A stretch of DNA of 64,000 bases from Chryseobacterium sp. CH25 (GTDB taxonomy: Bacteria > Bacteroidota > Bacteroidia > Flavobacteriales > Weeksellaceae), in assembly GCF_004119455.1 (NCBI RefSeq), contig NZ_NRQT01000004.1, positions 372,001 to 436,000 on the forward strand, written 5' to 3'. A program made the position numbers and the translations under genes. Below, one piece after another: positions 54,653 to 57,970 of the stretch. Each line of letters begins with the position of its first letter. Within the stretch, counting starts at the first letter, position 1. The notes below the pieces were generated by a model. That model was not told the DNA's origin. It searched no databases and was given only the letters and a program-made list of their open reading frames with translations.

Positions 54653-55684
54653 TTAGCAGTCTAAATATGCTCTCAATCCTTTCAGTAATTCCAGTTGATT
54701 CTTCGTTCTGTCCAGATTATGTTCCGGATATTTGATAGAATAATAAGTACTTCCATTTAAATAATCCGTAAGAAAACGAACCTCTTGAATATAAATAGCG
54801 ACTTGTGCAGCATAATCAAGGTGAGCAGATTCTTCCGGAGTCAGTTTTTCCTTTAGATAAAAAAGAAATCCTTCTTTTACAGCCTTATACATTTCAGGAT
54901 TGAAATTGTCTTTAGCACTTCCGTCATCTTCGTTGGTTTTATTAGTGTAGGACTGAATCATCGTTACGAAGTCATATAAAATAGTAGAAATCATCATGGT
55001 ATCCAGATCAATTACAGCTAACGGCTTATGATTTTGATCGAAGAGGATATTGCTGATTTTTACATCGGCATGAATGATTCTTTTGGGAATCTGATTGGTT
55101 TTCTCCATTTCTATCCATTGATCAGGTAAGGAAATAAGCTGATTGGTGATTTCTATTTCTGCCTTTGCATTTTCTTTTAAATGAGGAGCTGCATTTTCCA
55201 GTGCCTTTTTATAATCCACAATTCTTTTTTCAAAATTGAGAAAATTAGGAAGAGTATCTTCAATGGCAGGTAGCTTTTCAGTATTTACGATGCTAAGGAA
55301 ATAACTGAAGGTTTTAGCAGCTTCAAAAGCGGTCTGTAAAGATGGAGCAGTAAGAAAGGTAATGCTATTTTCTACGAAGCTTAACATACGCCATGGTTCA
55401 TCATTGGCGTCCTTTACCAAAAGTGTATTGTTAAGAGAAGGGACAGGCTCTATAATTTGAAATTGATAATCATTTGACCTGAGAAGTTCATTAATCATTA
55501 AATGATTGTTGACAATAACTTCCGGCTGTCTGAAGATATGATGATTGATCTTTTGCAGAATAAACTTTTTCTGCTGGTCCAGATCTTCCAACAGATAAGT
55601 GGTATTAATCAGTCCGTCTGTGATAGGAGAAAGACTGTAATTCTCTGTACCGATAAATTGAACCACGATATCATTTAGTTCCAT
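54653..55684 (-). CDS. Phosphotransferase/kinase of the APH superfamily (N-acetylhexosamine 1-kinase-like)
   Basis: A 343-residue kinase-fold protein. The N-lobe starts with LSPITDGLINTTYLL and the ATP Lys in KKFILQKINHH. The catalytic loop is PKRIIHADVKISNILFDQ (about 203-220), with the metal-binding Asp in LAVIDLDTMMISTILYDF. The HxDxKxxN form and the IDLDT motif resemble NahK, which phosphorylates GalNAc/GlcNAc at C1. It overlaps the nucleotidyltransferase gene by 10 bases and follows GH109. A HexNAc-1-phosphate-forming role fits but is inferred. Confidence 0.8.
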   Translation of the reverse strand: MELNDIVVQFIGTENYSLSPITDGLINTTYLLEDLDQQKKFILQKINHHIFRQPEVIVNNHLMINELLRSNDYQFQIIEPVPSLNNTLLVKDANDEPWRMLSFVENSITFLTAPSLQTAFEAAKTFSYFLSIVNTEKLPAIEDTLPNFLNFEKRIVDYKKALENAAPHLKENAKAEIEITNQLISLPDQWIEMEKTNQIPKRIIHADVKISNILFDQNHKPLAVIDLDTMMISTILYDFVTMIQSYTNKTNEDDGSAKDNFNPEMYKAVKEGFLFYLKEKLTPEESAHLDYAAQVAIYIQEVRFLTDYLNGSTYYSIKYPEHNLDRTKNQLELLKGLRAYLDC

Positions 55685-56583
55685 AGATTTTCAGGGTATC
55701 TGTTGTTCTGAATTTCTGAAGCCAGAAAATCTTTAATATTTTTTTTGTCGTCAGCATATGTTACTCCCATCCACTGTGAAGGGGAGGCTTTTACCGTTAC
55801 TTTTACTTTATTTTCATCTATCATTCTCTGAACTGCACTGGGAATATAAAACTCCTGTTTAGATGTTGGATCAGATTCTATGAAATCATAGAAATACGCT
55901 TCCAAAGCACAGAAAATATGAGGGTTAAAAATGAAGAAATTCATGGAAACTAACGTATCTGGGTTTAGTTTTATATGCTCGCCGTTTTCTGTATAAATGA
56001 TGGAGCCATTAAGCTTTTGAATTGAAGTTTGCTCTTCTACACGGATCAGATTATTTTCAGCATCCAGAGTACATATTCCTCTTGCTACTGTCCCGTGGCC
56101 ACTTAATGTTGTCTTTACAGGATAAGCAATCATTCCAAATTGTGAATCGGAAATATGATGATGGTTAATTTCATCAGCAGCAAGTAGATAAGCTTCTTTT
56201 CCGTAAAAATCATCGGCATTAATCATAATAAAAGGTTCCTGTATCACATATTTGGCACATAAAACCGCATGAGCTGTTCCCCATGGTTTTTCACGCTCAG
56301 GATAATCAAAACCCTGCAGCGGAATACTATTCATTTCCTGATATACCCAGTGGAGTTCAAAACTCTTTTTTTCAGAGATTGAATTCAGCCTTTCGATATA
56401 GCTTTGAGGGATCAGTTTATTAACGACAATAACGACTTTTGAAAAGCCTGCCTGTAGAGCATCATAGATGGAATACTCGAGAATAGGCGAGCCGTTATCG
56501 AGTATTCCATCTATCTGCTTAAGTCCTTTGTATCGGCTGCCTAGTCCACCCGCCAGTATAAGAAGTGTTTTTTTAGAACTCAT
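55675..56583 (-). CDS. Sugar-phosphate nucleotidyltransferase
   Basis: A 302-residue enzyme with the GlmU/RmlA-like Rossmann fold. The signature start [18 protein letters not shown] (6-23) binds the nucleotide, [16 protein letters not shown] contains the base-contact loop, and [17 protein letters not shown] has the metal Asp (about 105). It joins a sugar-1-phosphate to a nucleotide. It lies between the GH109 and kinase genes with overlaps on both sides (11 and 10 bases), so the three are translationally coupled. It may make UDP-HexNAc from the kinase product. Confidence 0.85.
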
Positions 56584-57970
56584 CAGTCATTCCGAATACA
56601 GGTTTACGGGTCTTCCATTTACCGTTCGTGAAATCAGGAATATCAACAACCTGACCTCCTTTGGCAATAGACTCTTCACTCAATGGAGTAATTGAATACC
56701 ATAAGGCCAGATCATAAACGTCCATAGGAAATTCTATATTTCGTTTGATACATTCAATAAAAGTATTCATTACAAAGAAATCCATTCCACCATGTCCGGC
56801 TCCTGCAGCAGTACTCTCAAACTTTTTCCACATCGGGTGGTCATATTCTTTCATCCACTTTTCCGTGTTGTCCCAACGGTGGGTGTGGTTCATTGTTTTT
56901 TCAAAATAAATATGTCCCTGATTGAATTCTCCCCAACCGAAGTCCTGCCATAGTCCCTCTGTTCCCTGTACACGGAACCCAAGATCATAAGGTCTCTGTA
57001 AGCTGGTATCATGAGTTAGAAGAATGGTTTCTCCATTTTCACAGGCAATTTGTGTAGTTACAATATCTCCCTGATTGAATTTTACTTTAGCATTCGGGTG
57101 ATTTTCTCCACCTTTTGCATGTTCTTTAATATATTTGTTCAGTCCTACAGACTTGGAAGAGAAAGAAGAAAGCCTTGTTAAGCGGTTTCCACGGTTGATA
57201 TCCATCATCATAGCGATTGGACCTAATCCGTGGGTAGGATAAAGTTCTCCATTACGTTTTACATAATGTTCCGTTCTCCACTTAGCCTCGCTGAAACCTT
57301 TTTCTCCAAATTCAGCTCCTGAATTGTAAGGAGTAACCCCATCATTGAAAAGTACTCCTCTCAGGTCATGCTGATAACCACCTCTTCCGTGAACCAATTC
57401 TCCAAACATTCCCTTGCGGACCATATTCAGAATAGCCATCACATCTCTTCGGTAGCACACATTTTCCATCATGAAAATAGGAACTTTTGTTTCCTCATAT
57501 ACTTTCACAAATTCCCAGCAATCCTGTAGCTTGATGGCTCCGGAAACTTCCATCCCTACTATTTTTTTAGCACGCATGGCTTCAACGCCCTGTGGAAGGT
57601 GCCATTCCCAAGGAGTAGCAATTACTACAGCGTCTACAGTCTTTAGTTTTAAAAGATTTCTATAATCATATTCACCGTTGGAGAATTCCTGGGCTGCCGA
57701 TTTATTGTTGTCTTTTAATATTTTTTGAGAAGCTGCCAGCATTCTTTTATCCGGATCAGCAAAAGCTACGATCTCTACATCACTGCGTTTCGCTAATAAT
57801 TTCACATGTTCCTGGCCACGGAGCCCTACACCAATAAAGCCCACACGGACTTTCTTATCTGTTTTAAAATCATTTGAATAGGCAAATAAGGAATTGGGTA
57901 CTACCAATGCACCAAAGCCTGCCAAAGCTGCTGTTTTGATAAAATTTCTGCGGGAAGTGCTATTGTCCAT
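56573..57970 (-). CDS. GH109-type NAD-dependent glycosidase (alpha-N-acetylgalactosaminidase-like)
   Basis: A 465-residue Gfo/Idh/MocA-fold enzyme with a Tat signal ([20 protein letters not shown]). It binds NAD tightly ([20 protein letters not shown], about 40-60; GMEVSGAI). Typical GH109 segments are [50 protein letters not shown] and [13 protein letters not shown]. The founding member is NagA of Elizabethkingia meningoseptica, a close relative of this organism, which removes terminal alpha-GalNAc (blood group A). It probably acts in the periplasm and starts an operon with a nucleotidyltransferase and kinase. Confidence 0.88.

Follow-up and report, generated by a model that had tools for sequence, protein, structure and literature searches.

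In Bacteroides thetaiotaomicron, the kinase BT4240 phosphorylates N-acetylgalactosamine (GalNAc) with an approximately 275-fold preference over N-acetylglucosamine (GlcNAc), forms GlcNAc-1-phosphate from GlcNAc, and is indispensable for the organism to grow on GalNAc (PMC11992087). The neighbouring BT4243-GH109 is an alpha-N-acetylgalactosaminidase, and BT4240 is 39% identical to NahK (PMC11992087). In the bifidobacterial lacto-N-biose/galacto-N-biose (LNB/GNB) pathway, composed of GLNBP, NahK, GalT, and GalE, degradation starts by phosphorolysis, and the UDP-sugar is formed by a GalT exchange with UDP-glucose (PMC8106489, PMC6668579). Here, a three-gene operon was analysed in a 64,000-nucleotide stretch of the genome of Chryseobacterium sp. 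CH25 (contig NZ_NRQT01000004.1, positions 372,001 to 436,000; referred to as the window). The trio encodes a GH109 family enzyme, a sugar-1-phosphate nucleotidyltransferase (NTase), and an APH-fold kinase related to BT4240, and probably forms a Leloir-type route of direct GalNAc activation, from GalNAc through GalNAc-1-phosphate and UDP-GalNAc to UDP-GlcNAc, in which neither a phosphorylase nor GalT takes part. The mammalian GALK2/AGX1 salvage likewise leads from GalNAc through GalNAc-1-phosphate to UDP-GalNAc, but with a kinase of the unrelated GHMP fold and a pyrophosphorylase of a different family. The Fkp fucose salvage of Bacteroides fragilis likewise combines a kinase and a pyrophosphorylase for a host sugar, but as a single fused protein acting on fucose and with GDP.

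The three genes were arranged head to tail on the minus strand in the order GH109, NTase, and kinase. The gene starts, and with them the overlaps, were predicted as the first ATG, GTG, or TTG of each open reading frame (ORF).

56573–57970, minus strand: GH109 family enzyme, 465 residues (ORF and Pfam)
55675–56583, minus strand: sugar-1-phosphate nucleotidyltransferase (NTase), 302 residues (ORF and Pfam)
54653–55684, minus strand: APH-fold kinase of the NahK family, 343 residues (ORF and Pfam)
56573–56583, minus strand: overlap of the GH109 and NTase genes, 11 bases (recurs in all 11 genus loci inspected)
55675–55684, minus strand: overlap of the NTase and kinase genes, 10 bases (11 of 11 genus loci; also L046, L047, and L049)

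The ORF coordinates bore out the overlaps of 11 and 10 bases claimed in the original prediction, which had been made from the sequence alone. The inspected genus loci comprised the window and 10 others, all with the same genes on either side of the trio, and the three further loci with the 10-base overlap lay outside the genus. Genes, families, conservation, linkage, and neighbours were directly seen in the genomes.

The GH109 protein matched the Pfam families Glyco_hydro_109_C (PF21252, 1.3e-86) and GFO_IDH_MocA (PF01408), both over the cut-off. It aligned with the alpha-N-acetylgalactosaminidase of Elizabethkingia meningoseptica (PDB code 2IXA) with an E-value of 4e-217 and 311 identical residues among 442 aligned (70%), in agreement with the relationship first proposed. 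Residues E149, Y179, R213, Y225, H228, and Y307 of 2IXA, which we take to form the active site, were identical at all six positions. The mechanism of the GH109 family is NAD+-dependent. The N-terminus contained a Tat-like motif, SRRNFIK, with a TIGR01409 score of 16.1 bits, just below the cut-off of 16.7, and the protein is predicted from these features to be an exported alpha-N-acetylgalactosaminidase. No export signal was seen at the N-termini of the NTase and the kinase; an inner-membrane GalNAc transporter is therefore needed, which is absent from the trio.

The kinase belonged to the Pfam family APH and aligned with NahK of Bifidobacterium longum (PDB codes 4WH1/4OCJ) with an E-value of 1e-40 and 91 identical residues among 314 aligned (29%). 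A PDB search with the kinase, up to an E-value of 0.01, returned NahK chains only. Its HADVK and IDLDT motifs, which had been recognized as NahK-type from the outset, aligned with HNDTK and IDLDT of NahK, and the two proteins had in common HxDxK, IDLDT, and a C-terminal RFL.DYL...Y...KYPEHNL.RT block, part of which was conserved in 90% or more of a set comprising 34 kinases and NahK. The Pfam match and this alignment uphold the assignment to NahK-type APH-fold kinases, and the kinase is predicted to be a GalNAc 1-kinase. The 70% identity of the GH109 protein to the E. meningoseptica enzyme, with the presumed active-site residues kept, argues against another alpha-linked sugar, such as GlcNAc or some hexose from a bacterial glycan, as the substrate throughout. 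The B. thetaiotaomicron kinase also strongly prefers GalNAc (PMC11992087); NahK, however, acts to a similar extent on GlcNAc and GalNAc (PMC6264712), and the trio kinase is only 29% identical to it. On balance, such another sugar is improbable.

The NTase belonged to the Pfam family NTP_transferase, and its best solved relative was 3PNN from Porphyromonas gingivalis W83 (E-value 8e-61), a protein listed with no assigned reaction. The LAxGxGSRYxGLKQ and KPWGTx-type motifs, which the aligned loci define for the 3PNN-type family, were both present. The AlphaFold model (pLDDT 88) matched 3PNN with a Z-score of 37.6, and the other 49 entries among the matches listed, including RmlA-, GalU-, and GlmU-type enzymes, gave Z-scores of 21.2–22.9. 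The identity as a sugar-1-phosphate nucleotidyltransferase, also put forward originally, is well supported by the Pfam family and 3PNN, and the nucleotide is not settled by the fold. The NTase is predicted to be a UTP:GalNAc-1-phosphate uridylyltransferase, for which we infer both the nucleotide and the sugar. MurU, the NTase of AmgK/MurU cell-wall recycling, was rejected as its identity, with 13.9 bits for NF045761 against an equivalog cut-off of 250.

The NTase tree contained 106 rows, was trimmed to the last 305 residues, was rooted at the midpoint, and carried long-branch warnings. The 11 genus trio NTases formed one supported clade and the Bacteroidales copies another, and a second genus NTase (L062, L063, L065, and L085) grouped with kinase-linked NTases from a different family within the order. 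Residues were contrasted between 74 Bacteroidales copies and 15 NTases that are linked to a kinase but do not belong to the trio clade, with the long-branched row L046 excluded; this gave eight columns with no clear determinant and was not used as evidence. Residue 104, in KPWGTxHA, was Gly in 10 of these 15 and in 8 of the 11 trio-clade NTases, that of the window having Ala instead, and Asn in 73 of the 74 Bacteroidales copies; it is a possible specificity position.

The trio was present with all three genes adjacent in 35 of 60 genus genomes, including its own, and entirely absent in the other 25, where adjacency was judged by eye from the coordinates. Three of the 25 (G026, G040, and G045) gave weak GH109 matches only, with E-values of 1e-5 to 1e-3, and G038, which belongs to the 35, had a broken kinase frame. 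The survey of the phylum covered 296 genomes, in some of which only the best 7 or 5 candidates were scored. The NTase was found in 52 and the kinase in 46 of these genomes, with both in 45, the kinase only in 1, and the NTase only in 7 (Fisher p 1.5e-44, which ignores kinship). Any GH109 match was found in 45 of the 46 genomes with the kinase. Of the 45 genomes that have NTase and kinase, 23 had the two genes no more than 2 kb apart, and a close-clade GH109 gene was within 2 kb of the kinase gene in 16 genomes, both being present in 28. All three genes were clustered in 9 phylum genomes, six of which were outside the genus (G099, G104, G150, G185, G188, and G291). Conservation as a unit, the phylogenomic test set by the original prediction, was thus borne out by the all-or-none presence in 35 and 25 genomes and by the NTase in 45 of 46 kinase genomes.

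The cluster order varies, and the genes are apart in many genomes, as would be the case for chance neighbours without joint function. The fixed overlaps, the all-or-none presence in the genus, and the recurrence of the trio outside it make this explanation extremely improbable, and the chance neighbourhood was rejected on the conserved overlaps and the presence pattern.

Identity to the window was 85–100% for the close GH109 proteins of the 35 trio genomes, far above the 61–94% of the NTase and the 56–92% of the kinase across the genus. The identities of GH109, NTase, and kinase were 96, 81, and 62% in G010 and 98, 79–80, and 90–91% in G015/G052, patterns that suggest recombination inside the operon. 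A degraded second GH109–NTase copy with stop codons was located near SusC/D-type genes in L064 (G012:C28), with a galactokinase gene approximately 17 kb away on the same contig.

In the proposed route, for which we infer the substrates, nucleotide, direction, and uptake, the exported GH109 enzyme would free GalNAc from alpha-GalNAc glycopeptides or glycans, and GalNAc would enter the cytoplasm through a permease encoded elsewhere. The NahK-like kinase would convert GalNAc into GalNAc-1-phosphate, and the NTase would join GalNAc-1-phosphate to UMP from UTP, so that UDP-GalNAc would form with no phosphorylase and no GalT exchange. An N-acetyl-tolerant GalE would then convert UDP-GalNAc into UDP-GlcNAc. 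This route, in essence that of the original prediction, is the most probable explanation of the operon. If true, the kinase and the NTase would constitute a simple enzyme pair for UDP-GalNAc from free GalNAc.

The trio and the B. thetaiotaomicron polysaccharide utilization locus BT4240-50 are alike in that a GH109 alpha-N-acetylgalactosaminidase and an APH-fold GalNAc kinase are encoded in one operon, whereas operon 1 of that locus is described with a GH2 enzyme and an MFS permease and no NTase (PMC11992087). The LNB/GNB pathway resembles the proposed route in its anomeric N-acetylhexosamine (HexNAc) kinase followed by a UDP-sugar and GalE (PMC8106489, PMC6668579). In place of phosphorolysis and GalT exchange, the trio has a glycosidase and an NTP_transferase-type enzyme. 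By Pfam, neither a phosphorylase nor GalT is encoded by any of the 15 ORFs of 100 or more residues that overlap 48000–64000; GalT was not searched elsewhere in the genome. The trio route also differs from the AgaA/AgaS route.

BT4240 is needed by B. thetaiotaomicron for growth on GalNAc from mucin or chondroitin, and the later steps are not addressed in the main text of PMC11992087. The words UDP, epimerase, uridyl, and nucleotidyl are absent from that text, and the step after GalNAc-1-phosphate is therefore left open there. In the NTase, the operon offers a candidate for the enzyme that follows this GalNAc kinase in gut Bacteroides, and it suggests the step series UDP-GalNAc, epimerase, mutase, and NagB. 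Slightly better than evenly balanced, in our estimate, is the wider proposal that Bacteroidota have a general GalNAc Leloir route without phosphorylase or GalT, in which a 3PNN-type, GalY-like NTase acts after a BT4240-type kinase and UDP-GalNAc forms directly from free GalNAc, and which is catabolic in some lineages and in others recycles GalNAc into UDP-sugars of the cell itself.

The NTP_transferase protein Amuc_0031 was predicted as GalY, a replacement for GalT, with galE and galMP neighbourhoods (Ravcheev and Thiele, 2017; PMC5583593). For GalNAc, the one route named in the relevant part of that paper proceeds via tagatose 6-phosphate in Actinobacteria, Firmicutes, and Proteobacteria (PMC5583593). 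The trio NTase and GalY have the NTP_transferase Pfam family and galE neighbourhoods in common, but GalY is predicted for galactose in place of GalT and, in the relevant part of that paper, is not tied to a GalNAc kinase (PMC5583593). We take the 3PNN-type family of the trio NTase to be the GalY family because of the shared Pfam family and the galE/galM neighbourhoods, and not from the sequence of Amuc_0031. The neighbourhoods were counted in the best 80 loci relative to the P. gingivalis sequence, a sample biased to Bacteroidales, from which six loci (L115, L117, L130, L139, L146, and L150) were left out since their NTase ORF was not recovered. Genes up to four positions away from the NTase gene were galE-like in at least 15 of 74 loci, galM-like in at least 8, and galK-like in at least 7, counts that are lower bounds since some of the 80 loci were short or cut; one representative of each was confirmed by NCBIfam.

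Given these galE-, galM-, and galK-like neighbours, and since no NahK-like kinase was found in the 80 loci, the NTase may handle galactose-1-phosphate (Gal-1-P). The NTase would then be a GalY enzyme in an operon for galactose, or for galactose and GalNAc, with the kinase a mere neighbour, and the prediction of galY as a replacement for GalT (PMC5583593) points the same way. GalY is expected to replace GalT in a genome with galK, but no galactokinase domain was found in the genome of the trio. A tie of the NTase to galactokinase within the genus was likewise unsupported, the latter occurring in 19 of the 35 genomes with the trio and in 17 of the 25 that lack it (Fisher p 0.42). Joint occurrence of NTase and kinase in 45 phylum genomes, against the 1 and 7 with either gene only, also argues against an operon for Gal-1-P, which we consider unlikely. 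GalNAc-1-phosphate is favoured as the NTase substrate because the partner of the NTase is a NahK-like kinase and not a galactokinase; Gal-1-P is the main rival substrate, and both may be used.

The neighbours of the genes in relatives were clustered from 41 sources, a non-random sample of 40 regions chosen for hits and the window from 44000 on, and the clusters were named from representatives that were tested. Na+/solute symporters of a single family adjoined the genes in five loci (L047, L048, L049, L060, and L061). An MFS permease cluster was represented in six loci, its members in L053 and L077 being NagP-like but with scores below the NagP cut-off. NagB was fused to a PIG-L domain, which might supply deacetylation, in eight loci, and a GalE-superfamily epimerase was encoded beside the kinase in three (L062, L063, and L077). 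SusC/D and LacI regulators were also among the neighbours elsewhere.

Within 20 kb, locus L077 contained genes for the NTase, the kinase, the GalE-superfamily epimerase, the NagP-like MFS permease, a SusC-like receptor, SusD, a distant GH109 protein, NagB (over TIGR00502), and phosphoglucosamine mutase (over TIGR03990). The best model for the epimerase was TviC, a UDP-GlcNAcA C4-epimerase, with a score under both the TviC and GalE cut-offs. By these predicted functions, L077 may encode nearly every step from GalNAc to glucosamine-6-phosphate through UDP-sugars; the return step from UDP-GlcNAc to GlcNAc-1-phosphate was not visibly encoded within the 20-kb cluster. In relatives of this kind, with epimerase, mutase, and NagB in the cluster, the product would most likely pass on to glucosamine-6-phosphate and glycolysis.

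In a second cluster of the genus (L065 in G044), an M60 peptidase gene was located beside SusC/D, NTase, and NagB genes, which parallels B. thetaiotaomicron, where an M60-like O-glycopeptidase adjoins the GalNAc kinase operon. The second-type NTase of L065 and L085 (G044 and G023) was encoded next to NagB and SusC/D, with neither the kinase nor the epimerase that accompany it in L062/L063, and galactokinase genes were approximately 18 kb (L065) and 22 kb (L085) away. In one genome, a sulfatase gene (L056:10824–12329) directly adjoined the GH109 and kinase genes, hinting at sulfated GalNAc substrates.

The genome of the trio encoded a GalE over the TIGR01179 cut-off with Ala at the position of Tyr299 of Escherichia coli GalE. 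The Y299C variant of the E. coli enzyme has a 230-fold higher activity on UDP-GalNAc, and the counterpart in human GalE, C307Y, loses most of this activity (PMC6668579). The GalE of this genome plausibly turns UDP-GalNAc into UDP-GlcNAc, and a sugar permease over the gluP cut-off was encoded elsewhere than the trio. The only match to the NagB query was a 6-phosphogluconolactonase, adjoining an apparent glucose-6-phosphate dehydrogenase; other deaminase families were not searched. Since UDP-GlcNAc can plausibly be formed here and no NagB-type deaminase was found, this genome is better read as salvaging GalNAc into the UDP-HexNAc pool, and the others as catabolizing it. Here, where no galactokinase domain was found either, the product would most likely feed the pool for wall and surface glycans.

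The same enzymes might nevertheless serve nutrition in this genome too, with GalNAc burnt via UDP-GlcNAc, GlcNAc-6-phosphate, and an unrecognised deaminase. The genes for catabolism found nearby in the rest of the Bacteroidota (NagB, mutase, SusC/D, LacI regulators, and permeases) and the need of B. thetaiotaomicron for BT4240 in growth on GalNAc (PMC11992087) are in keeping with this, whereas the NagB query result and a trio with no catabolic gene besides the kinase and the NTase are not; a nutritional role here is less likely than not.

Several observations weigh against the proposed GalNAc activation route as a whole. No NahK-like kinase was found in the best 80 Bacteroidales NTase loci, in some of which galE, galM, or galK was nearby. 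The fold comparison does not separate UTP from dTTP enzymes and was uninformative for the choice, since RmlA, GalU, GlmU, and others tie at Z-scores of 21–23, and the clade of the genus trio NTases is long-branched. The Fisher values for the phylum co-occurrence are overstated, as related genomes are not independent. Of the 44 genomes that carry a close-clade GH109, 16 lacked the kinase, as did 7 of the 52 with the NTase; where NTase and kinase co-occur, their genes were not within 2 kb of each other in 22 of 45 genomes. The trio itself contains no transporter or epimerase gene.

The trio had been put forward as undescribed, which holds in part. No description of a GH109–NTase–kinase trio was found in the open-licence PMC literature, among the matches listed. 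The GH109–kinase half, however, has been published for B. thetaiotaomicron (PMC11992087, 2025), and an NTP_transferase protein has been predicted as GalY (PMC5583593, 2017). The new element is the junction of a GalNAc kinase and a GalY-like NTase, which are not joined in the relevant parts of either paper.

The flanks of the trio (47506–63112) contained 12 other ORFs of at least 100 residues, among which no further sugar-pathway gene was recognized by Pfam; one ORF had no match. Two adjoining minus-strand ORFs of 160 and 164 residues at 58219–59291 matched the first and last parts of one PF00144 (Beta-lactamase-fold) profile, and this serine hydrolase gene looks interrupted. Its first half scored far under all class C beta-lactamase cut-offs listed. 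A promoter and terminator scan gave no more signals than in shuffles. The 19-base repeat ATTCCTACGGAATGACAAA was found in three exact copies, at 54559–54577 (plus strand), 54603–54621 (minus strand), and 41348–41366 (minus strand), with 0 expected in 100 shuffles, and two of them make up an inverted repeat immediately downstream of the kinase.

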